The notes below the pieces were generated by a model, which searched no databases, was not told the DNA's origin, and saw only the letters and a program-made list of their open reading frames with translations. The translations under genes were made by a program, and so were the position numbers. DNA of 32,334 nt from Desulfobulbus propionicus. GTDB lineage: Bacteria; Desulfobacterota; Dissulfuribacteria; Dissulfuribacterales; DYLC01. The stretch lies in the NCBI GenBank assembly GCA_020722285.1, contig DYLC01000007.1, positions 1 to 32,334 on the forward strand, read 5' to 3'. Shown here one piece after another: positions 5,440 to 27,879 of this stretch; positions within the stretch are counted from its first letter, which is position 1, and every line of letters begins with the position of its first letter.

Positions 5440-6768
5440 ATGACAAGAGATGAAATTTTAAAGATTGTAAAAGAAGAAAACGTCAACTTTTTCAGGGTGC
5501 AATTCACTGACATCTTTGGAATGATCAAAAATGTTGCAATCCCACGCAGCCAACTTGAAAAGGTATTGGATGGCAAGATGATGTTTGACGGCTCATCTAT
5601 CAATGGTTTTGCAAGGATTGAAGAGTCTGACATGTATCTGAAGCCTGATTATGACACGTTCTGTGTGCTTCCCTGGAGGACAAAAGATGGCTCTTCAGCA
5701 GCACGCATAATCTGTGACATTACGCTTCCAAATGGCGATCCGTTTGTTGGTTGTCCTCGCTACAACCTCAAAAGGGTTATGGCTGAGGCTGAAAAGACTG
5801 GCTACAGGATGAATGTCGGCACTGAATGCGAATTTTTCTTCTTCAATCTGGACGAAAAGGGTAATCCTACCACAAACACCCATGATGTTGCTGGTTATTT
5901 CAGCGTTGATCCAGAGGATCACGGTATCAACTGTCGTCGCGAGATCATCTTGACCCTTGAGGCTATAGGCTTTGAAATAGAGGCATCCCACCACGAGGTT
6001 GCAGAAGGACAACATGAGATCAACTTCAAGTATGCTGATGCGCTTACGGCTGCTGACAACACAGTGACCTTTAAGTGGGTTGTCAAGAACATAGCGCGTA
6101 AGTATGGCCTGCACGCCACCTTTATGCCAAAGCCAGTATTTGGCATAAATGGTTCAGGAATGCACACAAACCAGTCACTTTTTACACTTGACGGACAGAA
6201 CGCATTTTTTGATGAAAATACCCCGATGCAGCTTAGCCAGGTGGCAAGAGCCTATGTAGCAGGGCTTTTGAAGCATGCAAGGGGCATGGCGGCTGTGACC
6301 AATCCTCTTGTAAACTCTTACAAACGTCTTGTGCCAGGCTATGAAGCGCCTGTCTATGTGGCATGGTCATCATCCAACAGGAGCGCCCTTGTCAGAATCC
6401 CAGCCTCGCGCGGCATGGGCACTCGTTGTGAGCTTCGTTGCCCTGACCCAACCTGCAATCCATACCTCGCCTTTGCCCTCATGCTCAATGCAGGACTTGA
6501 CGGCGTGGTGAACAAAATCCAACCGCCTCCAACGACTGATCAAAACATCTACAAGATGACAGCAGAAGAAAAGGCTGCTAAAAATATTATGAGTATGCCT
6601 GCATCCCTGAAGGAGGCGTTGGAAGAGTTCAAAAACAACCCTATTGCAAAGTCCACACTTGGTGACCACATCTTTGAAAAGTATGTGAGTGCAAAGGAAA
6701 AGGAGTGGGATAAGTTCAGGATCAGCATTACTGACTGGGAGACTGAAAACTACCTGTCAATTTACTAA
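5440..6768 (+). CDS. glnA: Glutamine synthetase type I (GSI-alpha subtype)
   Basis: 442 aa cytosolic dodecameric enzyme making glutamine from glutamate, ammonia and ATP. It reads very like Firmicutes/Thermotoga GlnA: beta-grasp at residues 15-100, then the catalytic domain with [21 protein letters not shown], and [13 protein letters not shown]. The length and the segment [13 protein letters not shown] fit GSI-alpha, which lacks the adenylylation tyrosine loop and the roughly 25-residue insert of GSI-beta. R59 in GFARIEESD aligns with B. subtilis Arg62, which is needed for glutamine feedback inhibition. This suggests control by feedback rather than by GlnE. Ribosome-binding site AAGGAG at 5428-5433. 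A possible -10 (TAAAAT, 5415-5420) lies close upstream; I see no sigma54 site here. Confidence 0.96.
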
Positions 6769-6789: not shown

Positions 6790-6860
6790 CAAATGCTCAC
6801 ATACAGGAAGTATGCTGCGCTTTTCAGTCTCTTCACGCCTTGCCATCAACAAGATTACAA
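6790..6860 (-). repeat. Dispersed element, copy 3 (eroded fragment)
   Basis: Contains the core blocks AAATGCTCACATACAGG, AGTATGCTGCGCTTTTCAG and CACGCCTTGCCATC in reverse orientation. Both terminal inverted repeats and the CCCTG/CAGGG hairpin are missing. It starts 21 bp after the glnA stop and runs up to the direct repeats at 6857-6897. Confidence 0.6.
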
Positions 6861-6897
6861 AAATGTAGAAAAATAACAACAAAATTGTAGAAAAATA
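6857..6897 (+). promoter_or_regulatory. Paired direct repeats, candidate activator binding sites for glnN
   Basis: Two 19-bp copies, at 6857-6875 and 6879-6897, differ at one base (consensus ACAAAAWTGTAGAAAAATA). They repeat with a 22-bp period, about two helical turns, placing them on the same DNA face. Each contains a small dyad (ACA...TGT). They lie about 80-100 bp upstream of the predicted sigma54 start site, the usual place for enhancer-binding-protein sites. They do not match NtrC sites. The nearest NifA-type half-site pair (TGT at 6864, ACA at 6876) has spacing 9, not the canonical 10. Which protein binds is unknown. Confidence 0.5.
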
Positions 6898-6915
6898 TTT
6901 GCTTTTAAAGGTAAC

Positions 6916-6930
6916 ATGCTTACAAAGCAT
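6916..6930 (+). promoter_or_regulatory. Dyad upstream of the sigma54 promoter
   Basis: Perfect 6-bp arms ATGCTT and AAGCAT around ACA, ending 11 bp before the -24 element. The ACA spacer is the same as that of the larger palindrome at 6957-6979. Possible regulator site or small hairpin; function not evident. Confidence 0.35.
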
Positions 6931-6940
6931 CATTTTTAAA

Positions 6941-6957
6941 TTGGCACTTTTTTTGCT
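6941..6957 (+). promoter_or_regulatory. Sigma54 (RpoN) -24/-12 promoter for glnN
   Basis: TTGGCAC, five T, then TTGCT matches the established consensus TGGCAC-N5-TTGCW at every defined position. The GG (6943-6944) and GC (6955-6956) are exactly 12 bp apart. The start site would fall near 6968. It points towards glnN, giving a leader of about 330 nt that includes repeat copy 4. The upstream direct repeats supply candidate activator sites, and a NifA-type sigma54 activator is encoded just past glnN. Confidence 0.8.
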
Positions 6958-6979
6958 TTTACTTAAACATTAAGTAAAA
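6957..6979 (+). promoter_or_regulatory. Perfect palindrome centred on the predicted glnN start site
   Basis: Arms TTTTACTTAA (6957-6966) and TTAAGTAAAA (6970-6979) are perfectly complementary around ACA. The centre (6968) coincides with the +1 predicted from the sigma54 element. It overlaps the last base of the -12 element. This is the geometry of an operator whose bound protein would block open-complex formation. An RNA hairpin at the 5' end of the transcript is the alternative, though half or less of the stem would be transcribed. It is not a motif I can assign to a known regulator family. Confidence 0.6.
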
Positions 6980-7098
6980 TTTAAAGGCACAATTAACAAC
7001 ACGATACGAGATGTTCAAGATTACAGCCAAATGACACATAATTTTTTTGTAACTATCCAATATAATGCCAAAAAACGAACGAAAACCACTGTACTGTA

Positions 7099-7268
7099 GG
7101 GATATTACAAAAAATGCCCTTTCGCTCGCAAGCTTTAGCTTTCCTAACCCTGTGAAGCAGGGTGGGCATGGCTGCGTTGCTTTTCAACGAAAAAATCACA
7201 TACAGGGAGTATTTTTCGCCTTCTCACGCCTTGCCATCGAACAAAATTTCTAATTTCTGAAACTTCCC
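7099..7268 (-). repeat. Dispersed MITE-like element, copy 4 (complete), in the glnN leader
   Basis: 170-bp complete copy in reverse orientation. The ends read GGGATATTACAAAAAAT and, on the other strand, GGGAAGTTTCAGAAATT (12 of 17 match). TA immediately flanks both ends (7097-7098 and 7269-7270), as expected for a TA target duplication. The internal CCCTG/CAGGG hairpin is at about 7149-7163. A 62-codon frame crossing it from 7065 has no ribosome-binding site and is repeat-derived. Confidence 0.85.
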
Positions 7269-7274
7269 TATAAT
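7269..7274 (+). promoter_or_regulatory. Candidate secondary -10 for glnN at the repeat junction
   Basis: Perfect TATAAT made by the TA flank of repeat copy 4 plus host sequence, 25 bp upstream of the glnN ATG. A start near 7281 would give an 18-nt leader including the ribosome-binding site. The -35 region inside the repeat (TTTCTA at 16-bp spacing) is weak. Confidence 0.35.
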
Positions 7275-7298
7275 AAAATCTTTCTTAAGGAGAGCATA

Positions 7299-9431
7299 AT
7301 GAGCAGTGACACTTACTACGACTACCCAGAACAGGACACGATTAACCTGCCCGTCCTTTTCGCCAGCAATGTCTTCAGCGACAAAGTCATGAAGGCCAGA
7401 TTACCCAAGGAGACCTACAAGAGTCTGCGCAGGACTATAGAGGGGCTCGCTCCCCTGGCCCCTGAAACCGCCGCTGTAGTGGCTAACGCCATGAAGGATT
7501 GGGCGATTGAAAAGGGCGCCACTCACTATACCCACTGGTTCCAACCTCTTACCGGCGCCACTGCAGAAAAACATGACTCTTTCATCGCTCCTACCCAGGA
7601 TGGCGGTATCATCATGGAATTTTCTGGAAAGCAGTTGATCCAGGGTGAGCCTGACGCATCTTCCTTCCCCAGCGGCGGTTTGCGCGCCACTTTTGAGGCT
7701 CGTGGCTACACTGCATGGGACTGCACCTCCCCGGCTTTTCTGAAAGAGGATGCTGCAGGCAATGTAACCCTCTGCATACCGACTGCTTTCTGCTCGTACA
7801 AGGGCGAGGCATTGGACAAGAAAACCCCCTTGCTTCGCTCCATGGCTGCCGTTTCCAAACAGGCCATGCGCGTGCTGCGCATTATGGGGAACACCACCTC
7901 CAGCGCTGTAACCTCTACGGTCGGCGCCGAACAGGAATACTTTTTAGTGGACAAGGAGTATTACCTGAAGCGCCTTGACCTTTTAAACTGTGGTCGCACC
8001 CTGTTCGGTGCGCCTGCTCCGAAGGGACAGGAGCTTGAAGATCAGTATTTCGGCGCCATAAAGGATCGCGTTTCAGCCTATATGAGGGATTTGGACGTCG
8101 AACTCTGGAAGATGGGTATCACCTCCAAGACAAAACATAACGAGGTAGCACCTGCACAGTACGAGATGGCCCCTGTTTTTGCCACCACCAATATTGCCAC
8201 AGATCAGAACCAACTCGTCATGGAAACCATGCAGAAGATAGCTCTGCGCCACGAAATGGTCTGCCTGTTGCACGAAAAGCCTTATGCTGGCATAAACGGC
8301 TCTGGCAAACACAATAACTGGTCGCTCTCCACTGATGATGGCATCAACCTGCTTGATCCTGGCACGACCCCAGAAAACAATGCACAGTTCCTTGTCATGC
8401 TTTGCGCCCTTCTAAAGGCGGTTGATACCCATGCCGACATCATGCGCGCCACCTGTGGTAGCGCAAGCAATGACCATCGTCTTGGCGCTAACGAGGCCCC
8501 GCCTGCTATTATCTCTGTATTTTTAGGCGAGGAGCTTTCAGATATACTAACCACCCTTGCCGAAGGCAAAAAGGTCAGCGCAAAAAGTGGCAGTGACTTC
8601 CTGAGGATCGGCGTTGATTCCCTGCCTGATTTGCCTAAAGACAATGCTGACCGTAACCGCACATCACCATTTGCCTTCACTGGCAACAAGTTCGAATTCC
8701 GCATGGTCGGCTCATCACAGTCTATCGCTGGTCCTAACGTGGCTCTGAACACCATTGTTGCCGAGGCCTTGGATGAAATCGCTACCCGTCTTGAAAAAGC
8801 AACAGACGTAAATGTGGAGATATTGAATATTATCAAGGATACGGTAAAGCAGCATGGCAGAATCATGTTCAATGGCAACAACTATAGCGACGAATGGGCA
8901 AAAGAGGCGGAAAAACGCGGATTGCCTAACATTTGTAATACTGTTGACGCCCTTAAGAGTTTTATAACTGACAAGGCGCTCACCTTGTTTGGCAAGTATA
9001 ACGTATTAAGCAAAGAGGAACTCCATTCCAGATATGATATCTATGTGGAGCAGTATTCAAAGCATATCAATATTGAGGCACGGACTTCAATCCAGATGAC
9101 ACACAGGCTATATCTGCCATCTGCTATTCGCTTCTGCACCGAGCTTGGCAACTCTATAGCTGTAGCAGGAAAGGCTGGGGCTGTTCAAAAAGAATTATTG
9201 AAACAAATTGATAGCCTGATGACCTCAGCAAACAAGAATCTTAAGCAGCTCGAAACCGAGACAGCTAATGCAGCAGCTATTAACGATGTAGAAAAGCAGG
9301 CAGCAGCCTACCGCGATAATGTAGTCGTAGCGATGAATGCTCTGCGTGCTGACATTGATGCCATGGAACAGCTGCTACCGGCTGACCTCTGGCCAGTTCC
9401 GATCTACAGCGAATTGCTGTTCAATCTGTAA
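7299..9431 (+). CDS. glnN: Glutamine synthetase type III (GlnN)
   Basis: 710 aa, the size of GSIII, a double-ring dodecameric glutamine synthetase of different architecture from GlnA. The N-terminal GSIII-specific domain (about 1-170) contains the [21 protein letters not shown] signature. Catalytic blocks follow: [44 protein letters not shown], and [16 protein letters not shown]. The C-terminal region (about 600-700) is helical. Ribosome-binding site AAGGAGAG is 7 bp before the ATG. It follows glnA on the same strand after a 530-bp gap with its own sigma54 promoter, so it is probably induced separately, for example under nitrogen limitation. By eye the first half uses more C-ending codons and GGCGCC than its neighbours, which may mean horizontal origin or high expression; I have not computed this. 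Confidence 0.96.
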
Positions 9432-9454: not shown

Positions 9455-9646
9455 CAAAAATACGCAATTTCAACAAGTTAAGTTACTTGGAAGTTACTTG
9501 GAAAAAATTTTGTGCGCTGGCAAGGCGTGAAAAGGCTGAAAAGCACAGCATACTCCCCCAAATATTCCTGACAAGGGGAGGTCAGGAGGGGTTTTCAGAT
9601 AAACAACACAACCATTAAGCTAAAAGGCATTTTGGGGAACCTCCCT
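9455..9646 (+). repeat. Dispersed element, copy 5 (mosaic)
   Basis: Starts with the 30-bp module shared exactly with copy 1 (131-160), contains a local duplication of AGTTACTTGGA, and has the GGCAAGGCGTGA and AGCACAGCATACTCCC core. Its middle (about 9559-9625) is unlike the other copies (GACAAGGGGAGGTCAGGAGGGG). It ends in GGGGAACCTCCC, one base before the end of the nifA-like gene. It fills the convergent gap between glnN and that gene. Confidence 0.7.
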
Positions 9647-9647
9647 T

Positions 9648-11246
9648 TCATAATTGGACAAGATTATATTTTTGTATCTTATAGCCGATCTGCCTTGGGG
9701 TAAGCCCTAGTTCCTTGGCTGCCTTTGTCTGCACCCATTTATGCTTGATGAGAGCAGCCAGGATTTGCCTCTTTTCAATCTCCTTCAAAGAAAGCGATGG
9801 GCTGGACGACTGTTCCTGTTGCAAGGATTTTTGTGTCTGATTCATGGGTTTAAGGCATGGAATAGTGGAAACCGGACAGGTATTGCTGATAAAAAAAGGA
9901 AGCTCCTCAGGCTGGATACAGTCAGACTCTGTCATGATAAGCAGGCGCTCTATCAGATTTTGAAGCTCCCTTACATTTCCAGGCCAGTCATAAGAGATAA
10001 GGATATCAAGCGCCTGACGTGAAAGCTTGACATTCTTATGGTGGCTGAGGTTGTACTGTCTGAGGAAATGATCCACAATAGGTGGGATGTCCTCTACCCT
10101 GTTTCTTAAAGGCGGGATGACAATTGGCACTACGTTCAAACGATAATAGAGGTCTGCCCTGAATGTTCCATCTGCCACAGCAGCGTCAAGCCCCCTGTTG
10201 GTGGCTGCAATCACCCTTACATCCACCTGAACGGTATTCGAGCCTCCGACCCTCTCAAACTCCTGCTCCTGAAGCGCGCGCAGAAGTTTTGCCTGTAAAC
10301 TAAGCGGCAGCTCGCCTATCTCGTCAAGGAATAACGTGCCTTTGTCAGCCATTTCAAATCGGCCTTTTTTACGAGCAAATGCCCCTGTGAAAGCGCCTTT
10401 TTCATGGCCAAAAAACTCACTTTCCAGCAGGGTTTCAGGGATAGCTGCACAGTTAATCTTGATAAAAGGGGCTTTCTGGCGTTGACTACCCTCGTGAATC
10501 GCCCTTGCTATCAGTTCCTTCCCTGTGCCTGATTCACCCATGATGAGCACGGTAGCGCGGGTAGGGGCAGCCTTTTCCACTGTAACAAGCACATCCTGCA
10601 TTATCTTGCTCACGGCCACGATGTTTGGATATTTGTAGCGGGCGTGCAGTTCAGCCTTAAGAGAACGGTTTTCCTCTATCAGATGTTCCTGCTTGCTGTA
10701 AATCGCCTGATGCAGATTCAAAAACTGGGCGGTCAGGGCTGCAACCACTGTTAAAAAACGGATATCTTCTTCAAAAGATACATCTTGTGCAAAAAGCCTG
10801 TCAACGCTTAAGACACCGACGGTTTCACCATTCAGAATAACAGGCACACCGATAAAGGATATCTTGTCTTTTTTAAGTAAAAAGCTGTTTCTTGAGCCTG
10901 TCTTGTTCAAAAACAGGGGTTCATCCTTGATATCAGGCACAACAAACGGCTGGGCAGACTTAAAAACCTGGCCTGTGATACCCTCTCCAATACTGTAAAC
11001 CCCCCGCTCTTCCTCTTCCTTAGTCAGGCCGTAGGACGTGCGGATACGAAGCCGCCCCCCTGTCCTGTCCACCAGTGACAGGGTTGCGCGCTCCATGTGC
11101 AAGGTTTCATGAAGTATCTTGAGAATAGCGCGCAGAGTATGGTCCAGATCCGTGGCTCGTCCGATCAGCAAGGCTATCTCGTGAAGCGCTTGCAGCTCAA
11201 TCTGCTGTATCAAAGCAAAATCAGGGTCAGGTCCTGTAGTCAGCAT
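9648..11246 (-). CDS. NifA-type sigma54-dependent transcriptional activator
   Basis: 532 aa enhancer-binding protein of the NifA class. A GAF domain spans about 15-175, where NifA senses metabolic state or PII-type proteins. The AAA+ domain (about 208-440) has Walker A GESGTGKE (237-244), the sigma54-contacting GAFTGA loop (284-289), Walker B FLDEIGE and RADLYYRL. A Fis-type helix-turn-helix lies at about 509-526 ([18 protein letters not shown]), close to NifA's. The linker before it has two cysteines (C457, C464), unlike the four-cysteine motif of oxygen-sensitive rhizobial NifA. The start overlaps argJ by 20 bp and lacks a clear Shine-Dalgarno, suggesting translational coupling. No nif genes are in the window. 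Its position beside glnN, which has a sigma54 promoter, makes glnN a plausible target; that is inference. Confidence 0.88.
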
Positions 11247-22096: not shown

Positions 22097-22104
22097 CAAC
22101 TACA

Positions 22105-22288
22105 GGGAGGTTACAAAAAATAGAAATTTCGTTCAAAGGCAAGACGCGAGGAGGCGAAAAAAACGCAGCATACTCTTCTGTATGTGAGCATTTTTTTTAC
22201 TGACAAGCAACGCAGGCATGCCCACCCTGCTTCACAGGGTTAGGAAAGCTAAAGCTTGCGAGCGAAAGGACAATGTTTGAAACTTTCC
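22105..22288 (+). repeat. Dispersed MITE-like element, copy 7 (complete)
   Basis: 184-bp complete copy. It begins with GGGAGGTTACAAAAAAT and ends with GTTTGAAACTTTCC; the terminal repeats match at 12 of 17. The core includes GAGGCGAAAAAAACGCAGCATACTC, GACAAGCAACGCAGG, the CCCTG/CAGGG hairpin and the GCTAAAGCTTGCGAGCGAAAG block. Unlike copy 4, TA does not flank it exactly. It starts 9 bp after the skp stop. Confidence 0.85.
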
Positions 22289-24341: not shown

Positions 24342-24938
24342 ATGTCCCTTGTCTTAAACCTTGCAAAAGTCGCATTTCTAAAAAGTGCATCTCATATAGA
24401 CGATCTGCCTGAAACGTCATTTCCTGAAGTGGCGTTTGCAGGCAGGTCGAATGCAGGCAAATCTTCCCTCTTAAACCGGCTGTTTCAACGCAAAAATCTT
24501 GTAAAAACCAGCTCCAGACCAGGCCATACGCAGCTTCTGAATTTTTTTGAAGTGGATGGCCGCGCCTATTTTGTTGACATGCCTGGCTATGGTTTTGCGA
24601 AAGCCCCGGAGGATATTCAGATTAAATGGCGTAAGCTCCTTGAAAACTATGTTCAGCACAGAGATGCCCTCAGGCTTGTTGTGTGTATATTTGATGTGAG
24701 AAGAAGACCTGATCACCTGGATATGGCTCTGCTTGATTTTTTAAAGTCATGTGAACGGAATGTGTTTGTTGTGCTGAACAAGTCAGATAAACTTAATGCC
24801 AGAGAGCTTGCGCGTCAAACGCAATTGCTCCGCCAGTGTCTGCATATTGAGAAGGATAAAATTTTCGTGCTTTCCTGTCTTACAGGAAAGGGCGTGGATG
24901 CCCTGCGAGAGAGGCTTTGCAACGGTATATCTCAATGA
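24342..24938 (+). CDS. engB: EngB/YihA-type ribosome biogenesis GTPase
   Basis: 198 aa TrmE-Era-EngA-like GTPase of the EngB (YsxC/YihA) family, required in several bacteria for maturing the large ribosomal subunit. G1 is GRSNAGKSS (about 31-39), the G2 region SSRPGHTQ, G3 DMPGYGFAK (about 79), G4 NKSDKL and G5 SCLTGKG. Length and motif order match the family. The start lies 26 bp after transketolase, with no strong Shine-Dalgarno, suggesting co-transcription. The last 7 bp overlap the end of the convergent nuclease-helicase gene, so the two mRNAs are complementary at their 3' ends. Confidence 0.95.
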   Translation: MSLVLNLAKVAFLKSASHIDDLPETSFPEVAFAGRSNAGKSSLLNRLFQRKNLVKTSSRPGHTQLLNFFEVDGRAYFVDMPGYGFAKAPEDIQIKWRKLLENYVQHRDALRLVVCIFDVRRRPDHLDMALLDFLKSCERNVFVVLNKSDKLNARELARQTQLLRQCLHIEKDKIFVLSCLTGKGVDALRERLCNGISQ

Positions 24939-27853
24939 CATATACCGTCTCCCTCTACGAACAGACACCTCTGGTCACTTTGCACAAACTCCACCAGCCT
25001 GCCAATCAAACGCGAGTGCTTAGATGCCTGTCTCCAGTCTCCCACCCCTATAAACCGTTGTCTGGCGCGGGAAAGAGCAACATTTAATCTTCTCGGATCA
25101 TCCAGAAATCGGTTTGCAGCAGGGTTATCAGCGCTGTGTGATTGGCAGGCCTCCCAATCTGCGCCAGTCAGGGAAAATATAATTTCCATCCGTTCATCAC
25201 CCTGAAATCTCTCCACAGTGTCAACCATCGCCCTGATCACATCCTGTGCAATCGTTGTGTCTCGCCCAAGGGCTGTTCTTATAGCTGCTACCTGCGCCCT
25301 GTAAGGGGCTATCACCCCAAGCAATCCCTCAAGCCTTTCATGGTCTGAATCTTCAGAGATGCCGTGTATTTTTAAAAGCCTTGTAACAATATTCGCTATT
25401 AAATCTGCCTCAAGCTGATTTGTCCGGACAGATTGCTTTTCTATATTCTTTTCATTATGACAAATCAAAACAATCTGCACATCAGACAGCAGAATATCGG
25501 TTAGTTGATCGACTTCAATACAGCAGGATGTTCTTTTCTGGCCCTGTTTTTTATAAGGGCTTGTGTGAAGCATCCCCTCGTAAAATTCTTTGGAAATAAA
25601 ATCACAGATTGCCTCCGGCATTCTGAACTGCTCATCAAGCATGACCTTGATGTTTTTATTGCCATAATCCAGCTCAAAAAGGCTTTCAAACAGACTTTTT
25701 TTCAAATCCGGCGTTGTTTCAGAAAGAACTACCGGTGGAAGCTGCCTGTGATCTCCAACAAGGATGTGCGCTTGGGCAAGGCTTAATATCCCCAAAAGAT
25801 GGGGTGCAAATATCTGCGATGCCTCGTCTATCAGAGCTACATCAAAAAGACCGCCTGAAAGCAGATTGTCATAGTTTCCTGAAAGCCAGGCATGGGTTGT
25901 TCCCACAAAGACTTCCATGTCTGCGAGTCCCTGCCTGATCCTCTCGATCTGACGCAGCATCAGATGGCCAAAGCGCGAACTGTCTTTCAGCTCTTGCGCA
26001 GGAAGAGGCTCCTGAAAACATCTTTCGCTGTTGAGCCTGTAAACAGATATGTCAGGACAGATGCGCGAAAGTTTTTTGCTCACCTCATCTACAGCCCTGT
26101 GGGTATAACAGGCAACCAAGCATCGTTTGCCTGCTGATTGCTGTGCCTTGATAATTCTGGCGATAGTAGTGGTCTTTCCTGTGCCTGGAGGCCCTTGAAT
26201 CAGCAGGAGTTTTTGAAGGCCAAGGGAGAGGCTCACAGCCCTTTTCTGCATGGCAGAAACAGCATCGGCAGTCTCATCAGCCTCCCACAGGCTGACAGCA
26301 TTTGGGGCAAGATTTTCGGTGATGCCATTTAGCAGCTCAAGATAAATGGCAAGCTCCTGATCCTTGAACAAATGAGCAAAGGATGCAAAGTTTTTCTCAA
26401 ACATCGCCTCCTTGACATGAAGCTCAAGAAATGCTGGTTTGAATGCGCCAGTCTGAACTGATGCAGACGTCCTGACCCTGATGCTTTTTTCCGTGACACT
26501 TTCCACCACTGCCTCTGCGCAATCCCCTGCAATCGTTCCCTTTTCGCAGCTTAAAAGACATGCGTCGCCCTCGCGAATCTCTGAACAGTTTGGATGCTCA
26601 AGATGTAAGTTAAGAACTTCTGCCTCAAGATTATATGCCTTGATCCTGACTGCCCTGCCGTCCTGAATGCGGTCACTGATAGGGGTTGTCAGATTTTTGA
26701 TTTGTTCACGGCGAATAGCGTCATATTCAGTCAATAGTTGTCTGTAAAACCTTTCGAAAAACACGAGGTTGGTATGCGAGTCAGCATGTTTCCGATCTGA
26801 ATGCCCAAAAAGCCCGTTAAGCATTGAACAATCCTGCTTTTGCCTGCACGAAACGCATCTGCCATCAGACAGGCTCTGAACAGTAGTCGCACAAAGATCG
26901 GCAAATACCAAAGAATTCCTGAGCCGCATCACATGAAATGCATCGTTATAAGCATAGGAGACCTGCTTTGCCACACCCTCCCGCAGCTCTTCATCACCGG
27001 AATATAAGACAAGGGGATTTAGTATTTTTTTCCCCCTGTAACGCCATGAAAGCATAAGGGAATATGCCTGAGCCTGAAAAGCATGGCCTTTTTGCACCTT
27101 GCCACCCCAGCACCGCCCGGTTTTAAGCTCCAGAGCCCTGATTGAGTTGTCTTCATACTTCAACACAGCATCAATCTTGCCTTTAAGGCCAAAAAAAGGG
27201 TTTATCATGTAGCGTTCGCTTTGAATGTTTATGGCAGAATCAAGATGTTTTCGGCGAAAGCGATAAAGTCTGTTGAGATGAGCCCGTACAGTTTCTTCTG
27301 TCTTGACAGGGCAGATGTCCATGAGAGCAAATGAGGTGACAACATCGCTGAAGGCATCCTGCAAACGCCTGCGAAGCGCATCGTGTTTCTCCGGCGCTTT
27401 GAGAACAGATTCAAATACATTGTGAATCAGCGATCCCCTGAGCATGGGTTCACTTGGAGACTGACTCATGAAACGTTTCACGTGAAACCGGCGCTGGCAA
27501 TAATCGAGCTCTGTCAGGGCTGTCACATTTACAAGCCAGCCCGGCTCCACAACAAGCAATGAGCCATGCTGTCTGTCAAGCTCTATCTCATCTCCGTTTT
27601 GAACAAATCCTGTCATGTTCAGGCTGACAGAAGTTTTTCTCAGGCCAGGCCCTGCATTGGAAAGCACCTCTGCCAGAAAACCTGTATTGCTTTCAAATCC
27701 ATTGGAAAGCCTTACAGTAAAAACACTGTTCGCTGGTTTGACATTTTGTGCGGATTGTCCGTTGAAAAAGGGCAGACTTTCAACAAGCAATGCATTTTCG
27801 GATGGCGCTACTTCAAGAAGTCGTGCATGCAGAAATGGGGAAAATCTGATCAT
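24932..27853 (-). CDS. Dna2-like nuclease-helicase (Fe-S PD-(D/E)XK nuclease fused to SF1 helicase)
   Basis: 973 aa from the ATG at 27853 (980 from a TTG at 27874; neither has a clear ribosome-binding site). The N-terminal half is a RecB/Cas4-type nuclease: H144 (GSLIHNVFE), D228 (GKIDAVL), E242-x-K244 (LELKTG) and QAQAYSLML. Four cysteines frame it: C119 (LDYCQRRF), then C333-x2-C336-x5-C342, the exact spacing of the iron-sulfur ligands in eukaryotic Dna2. The C-terminal half is an SF1B (Upf1/Dna2) helicase: GPPGTGKTTT near 554, IDEASQI near 671, VGDHRQLPP, TVERFQGDE and RLNVALSRARQRF. It probably unwinds and trims flapped or broken DNA ends. Biological role in this organism is unknown. Last in a minus-strand row with the acyl-CoA synthetase. 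Confidence 0.85.
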   Translation of the reverse strand: MIRFSPFLHARLLEVAPSENALLVESLPFFNGQSAQNVKPANSVFTVRLSNGFESNTGFLAEVLSNAGPGLRKTSVSLNMTGFVQNGDEIELDRQHGSLLVVEPGWLVNVTALTELDYCQRRFHVKRFMSQSPSEPMLRGSLIHNVFESVLKAPEKHDALRRRLQDAFSDVVTSFALMDICPVKTEETVRAHLNRLYRFRRKHLDSAINIQSERYMINPFFGLKGKIDAVLKYEDNSIRALELKTGRCWGGKVQKGHAFQAQAYSLMLSWRYRGKKILNPLVLYSGDEELREGVAKQVSYAYNDAFHVMRLRNSLVFADLCATTVQSLSDGRCVSCRQKQDCSMLNGLFGHSDRKHADSHTNLVFFERFYRQLLTEYDAIRREQIKNLTTPISDRIQDGRAVRIKAYNLEAEVLNLHLEHPNCSEIREGDACLLSCEKGTIAGDCAEAVVESVTEKSIRVRTSASVQTGAFKPAFLELHVKEAMFEKNFASFAHLFKDQELAIYLELLNGITENLAPNAVSLWEADETADAVSAMQKRAVSLSLGLQKLLLIQGPPGTGKTTTIARIIKAQQSAGKRCLVACYTHRAVDEVSKKLSRICPDISVYRLNSERCFQEPLPAQELKDSSRFGHLMLRQIERIRQGLADMEVFVGTTHAWLSGNYDNLLSGGLFDVALIDEASQIFAPHLLGILSLAQAHILVGDHRQLPPVVLSETTPDLKKSLFESLFELDYGNKNIKVMLDEQFRMPEAICDFISKEFYEGMLHTSPYKKQGQKRTSCCIEVDQLTDILLSDVQIVLICHNEKNIEKQSVRTNQLEADLIANIVTRLLKIHGISEDSDHERLEGLLGVIAPYRAQVAAIRTALGRDTTIAQDVIRAMVDTVERFQGDERMEIIFSLTGADWEACQSHSADNPAANRFLDDPRRLNVALSRARQRFIGVGDWRQASKHSRLIGRLVEFVQSDQRCLFVEGDGICH

Positions 27854-27879
27854 GAGGCCTGCGAATGGCGACAAACAAT

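Follow-up and report, generated by a model that had tools for sequence, protein, structure and literature searches.

A perfect palindrome over the predicted start site of a sigma54 promoter of glnN: candidate operator or rare coincidence

In the window (the whole 32,334-nucleotide stretch of DNA that was analysed), the gene of a type III glutamine synthetase, glnN, is preceded by an ordinary and, as far as its sequence tells, well-supported sigma54 promoter, and the start site predicted from this promoter falls exactly at the centre of a perfect inverted repeat. The palindrome is real and occurs once in the source genome (1.69 Mb in 100 contigs, completeness ~90%); it is either a candidate operator or a rare coincidence. 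A gap of 530 bp separates glnA from the downstream glnN, and the locus comprises the following features:

5440–6768, + strand: glnA, type I glutamine synthetase (GSI), 442 aa (Pfam Gln-synt_C, 6.9e-139, and Gln-synt_N)
6791–6856, no strand: interspersed repeat copy forming the left border of the promoter island (~35 overlapping matches, 22 beginning at 6791 and 12 ending at 6856)
6857–6875, + strand: enhancer candidate 1, ACAAAAATGTAGAAAAATA, ACA-N4-TGT dyad, -111 to -93, direct repeat
6879–6897, + strand: enhancer candidate 2, ACAAAATTGTAGAAAAATA, -89 to -71, direct repeat, 22 bp (two helical turns) from candidate 1
6942–6957, + strand: predicted sigma54 promoter, -24 TGGCAC (6942–6947) and -12 TTGCT (6953–6957), perfect consensus, with rpoN in the genome
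6957–6979, no strand: perfect inverted repeat TTTTACTTAA-ACA-TTAAGTAAAA, 10-bp arms and 3-bp spacer, its centre (6968.0) being the predicted +1
7049–7275, no strand: interspersed repeat modules (genome repeat matches), the bulk of the glnN leader
7299–9431, + strand: glnN, type III glutamine synthetase (GSIII), 710 aa (Pfam GSIII_N, 3.4e-79; Gln-synt_C-ter, 2.1e-43)
9648–11246, - strand: NifA-class enhancer-binding protein (GAF-AAA+-HTH_8), candidate activator (TIGR01817 nifA, 572.7 bits; cut-off 528.85)

Motif positions and spacing bear out the reading of TGGCAC-N5-TTGCT at 6942–6957 as a full sigma54 consensus in the initial annotation, and the GG-N10-GC spacing is present within this TGGCAC-N5-TTGCW match. 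The positions given there were correct to the base, except that the range in its title (6941–6979) began one base early, and its naming of glnN agrees with the GSIII_N and Gln-synt_C-ter matches, which identify the product as a GSIII. With the start taken 12 bp 3' of the -12 C (6956), the predicted +1 is 6968. The genome encodes RpoN (TIGR02395, 452.9 bits against a cut-off of 277.35), and ten HTH_8 matches were found in it, mostly in proteins with a sigma54-activator domain. The perfect consensus has six matches genome-wide; at no more than one mismatch there are 99, against 22 for the reversed control. Transcription probably starts at 6968, and RNA polymerase-sigma54 would transcribe glnN from about this position.

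The arrangement resembles NtrC/NifA-type sigma54 nitrogen promoters such as the enteric glnAp2 in its -24/-12 elements, in its tandem candidate sites ~70–110 bp upstream, in having a glutamine synthetase as target, and in belonging to a genome that encodes both RpoN and enhancer-binding proteins. It differs from them in that (i) the target is a GSIII rather than a GSI; (ii) the enhancer candidate has the form ACA-N4-TGT; (iii) a perfect palindrome lies across +1; and (iv) the leader is 330 nt long and contains an interspersed repeat. Even if the palindrome is not an operator, the locus is a clear case of predicted sigma54 control over a type III glutamine synthetase.

Such control appears to be recurrent and is unsurprising, since among the 80 nearest GSIII loci 8 distant, non-Firmicutes ones have a sigma54-type site 74–143 bp upstream of the match start; none of these 8 sites has arms longer than 3 bp near +1. 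L002 and L003, the GSIII sequences nearest to that of the window (deltaproteobacterial, 70–71% identity), are without a sigma54 site. Their leaders contain hairpin pairs whose loops follow AxxGxx (ATTGAA/AAAGTG and ATTGAT/AAAGAA) ~50–160 bp upstream of glnN, which is the form expected of ANTAR antiterminator targets. The window shares with L002 and L003 a putative regulatory region upstream of glnN; their hairpins lie near the gene, whereas the window leader contains no ANTAR-type hairpins and has a sigma54 site instead. Judged from these hairpins and from the sigma54-type sites elsewhere, the control of GSIII genes appears to have developed differently from one lineage to another. In a Lachnospiraceae locus (L038), GGGCACTTTTTTTGCT lies ~105 bp upstream of glnN and is followed by CGGGAATTCCCG, a 12-bp palindrome near the predicted +1; the position of this palindrome is similar to that of the window palindrome and its sequence is unrelated. 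Neither the single same-family genome examined (G001) nor the order relatives searched yielded a glnN. The glnA of G001, 80% identical to that of the window, has a sigma54-type site ~100 bp before its start, with no +1 palindrome; at -154 lies ACATTTTTGT, which on the opposite strand reads ACAAAAATGT.

Upstream of the promoter, at -111 to -71, are two 19-nt direct repeats, identical at 18 of 19 positions and each with ACA-N4-TGT; a 19-nt repeat this good appeared in 0 of 300 shuffles of the 183-bp promoter island (6857–7039). The pair looks like an enhancer, arranged as tandem activator sites are. An activator presumably binds here: an enhancer-binding protein, as dimers on both ACA-N4-TGT repeats, would switch glnN on. 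Because it is adjacent to glnN, the protein encoded at 9648–11246 is the leading candidate for this activator; its gene is convergent to glnN and overlaps argJ, and homologues at 55–67% identity were found across the order. A nitrogen response regulator encoded elsewhere in the genome would be a possible alternative. The link between the NifA-class protein and glnN is drawn from adjacency, and the candidate repeats do not have the TGT-N10-ACA spacing of NifA upstream activator sites; no such site was found between 6401 and +1, where only TGT-N12-ACA and TGT-N9-ACA occur, at -104. We therefore do not claim glnN as a member of a NifA regulon, which the nearby NifA-class activator might suggest; nor was nifH found, with no match over the cut-off in the ~90% complete assembly (best score, 40.9 bits). 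The NifA-class activator may have been redeployed, passing from a role in nitrogen fixation to one in ammonium assimilation. The candidate enhancer, this neighbouring activator and the interspersed repeat at 7049–7275 had all gone unmentioned in the initial annotation.

The promoter island is unique DNA with interspersed-repeat copies on both sides. These repeats consist of separable modules of ~66, 50 and 170 bp, with 47–56 matches genome-wide at 71–95% identity; a 241-bp query gave 47 matches in the genome and 6 in G001. The repeat is much rarer in relatives and folds weakly, and more copies are present in the window at 173–336, 2571–2658, 9505–9557 and 22101–22282. The -24 box lies 357 bp from the glnN ATG; removal of the 227-bp block 7049–7275 brings it to 130 bp, inside the 74–143 bp range of the other GSIII loci. 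Insertion of the repeat would thus suffice to explain the long leader. A scan of the glnA–glnN gap for RNA families (Rfam) gave nothing above the gathering score, and the leader showed no intrinsic terminator and no significant fold.

The perfect 10-bp-arm palindrome at 6957–6979 was confirmed to lie exactly over the predicted +1. Of 4000 dinucleotide shuffles of the 183-bp island, 50 contained any perfect repeat with arms of at least 10 bp (spacer of up to 8 bp) and in none did such a repeat have its centre 2 bp or less from +1; scaled, the chance of such a repeat within 2 bp of +1 is ~4e-4 for the glnN promoter alone, and a local Markov model gave 6e-5 per centre. The palindrome was chosen post hoc, and the case against chance becomes weaker once all sigma54 sites and the free choice of feature are allowed for, a correction made by judgement (~20 plausible sigma54 promoters). 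The arms are 9/10 A+T in a start region that is 74% A+T. TTTT after TTGC is common at the sigma54 sites of this genome, so some of the left arm comes as no surprise. The ~265 kb of genome sequence scanned, from loci that overlap in part, contained 20 such perfect repeats, and the palindrome alone among them has arms with fewer than 3 G/C each. A second dyad, ATGCTT-ACA-AAGCAT (6917–6931), also has an ACA spacer, with a different half-site spacing; it was rejected as a related site, having 6-bp arms only, which we estimate, without simulation, to be at chance level in A+T-rich DNA. A perfect 11-bp-arm inverted repeat, TTTATGCCAAA-N7-TTTGGCATAAA, is also present within the glnA coding sequence (6121–6149).

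Searches for other copies do not support the earlier proposal of a repressor layer implied by the palindrome. A genome search at up to two mismatches returned the glnN site and no second one, and the relaxed core gave 24 matches against 85 for the control, that is, below control. Matches in the order relatives were at control level, with no enrichment, and no candidate regulator emerged. None of the other sigma54 candidates of the genome that were tested has arms longer than 6 bp near +1, and an equal-sized +1 palindrome was found neither there nor at the GSIII sigma54-type sites tested. There are two further exact ACTTA-N5-TAAGT matches; one is in a gap next to genes of flagellar type, the other at a gene's 3' end, and neither precedes a regulator gene. 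Among viral contigs, the single palindrome match, in a contig of eukaryotic-virus-like genes, was taken as chance. A literature search for the 8-mers brought up nothing relevant among the matches listed. Taken together, the sigma54 promoter, the identity of glnN and the overlap of palindrome with the predicted +1 are supported, and the step from palindrome to repressor is not.

On balance, we lean by a little towards the palindrome being incidental, a private operator coming close behind. The palindrome most likely stands outside any conserved control system: a singleton A+T-rich perfect repeat may have arisen in the A+T-rich start region, through chance or quasi-palindrome correction, and would then be without function. 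Against this reading speak the low chance probability at this promoter and the lack of any other such A+T-rich repeat in the ~265 kb, and a regulator with a single target would be compatible with the absence of other sites. The operator is a serious possibility, if a somewhat less probable one. A dimeric helix-turn-helix repressor covering -11 to +12 would block open-complex formation or promoter escape, and expression of glnN would require that the enhancer-binding protein is active and that the repressor has come off. The perfect arms, the odd spacer, the centring exactly at +1 and the low chance probability argue for such a site, as does precedent for repressors on sigma54 promoters: according to a review, BadR binds and represses the sigma54-driven rpoS promoter of Borrelia (PMC12472547). 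A repressor on a sigma54 promoter would thus not be categorically new. The B. burgdorferi promoter and that of glnN are alike as sigma54 promoters that could bear a repressor beside an activator; BadR is the reported repressor of the former, and the BadR TAAAATAT motifs, as they appear in the reference list of the review, are unlike the palindrome (PMC12472547). In Desulfovibrio vulgaris, the sigma54 regulome study describes nitrogen regulons under one-component activators, and the word 'repressor' is absent from it (PMC4641369). Against the operator, with no second site, no autoregulated regulator is visible and none was identified, and the two other ACTTA-N5-TAAGT matches do not lie before a regulator gene.

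If the palindrome is an operator, a repressor would sit exactly where sigma54 polymerase melts DNA, at a central nitrogen gene; this melting step is generally held to be under the sole control of the activator. The fuller scheme, in which a private dimeric repressor on +1 gives glnN two-key control at the open-complex step and the redeployed NifA-class activator supplies the other key, is unlikely. We consider it highly improbable that the palindrome acts through structure, whether as a cruciform or a readily melting A+T stretch that influences open-complex formation, or as a hairpin in read-through RNA from glnA. The read-through RNA would fold, weakly (-6.8 kcal/mol, z -2.06), and the arms are rich in A+T; however, a cruciform of 10-bp A+T arms closed by a 3-base loop would be weak, the scan for intrinsic terminators gave none, and RNA starting at 6968 carries one half of the palindrome, which excludes a hairpin in that transcript. 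There is equally little to be said for the view that glnN is not expressed from the sigma54 site, with transcription instead starting nearer the gene or reading through from glnA and the upstream elements having decayed after repeat insertion. The distance to the ATG, the repeat block in between and a TATAAT shortly 5' of glnN would fit this view, but the -24/-12 elements and the tandem candidate enhancer are intact with no visible decay, a promoter scan gave no sigma70-type promoter, and the distance left after subtraction of the repeat block matches that of other GSIII loci.

A plasmid search gave zero matches. Elsewhere in the window, positions 24932–27874 encode a 980-aa protein with similarity to a helicase (IGHMBP2-like) and a Cas4-like nuclease, which bears a weak likeness to the PLuB/Hhe anti-phage helicases.
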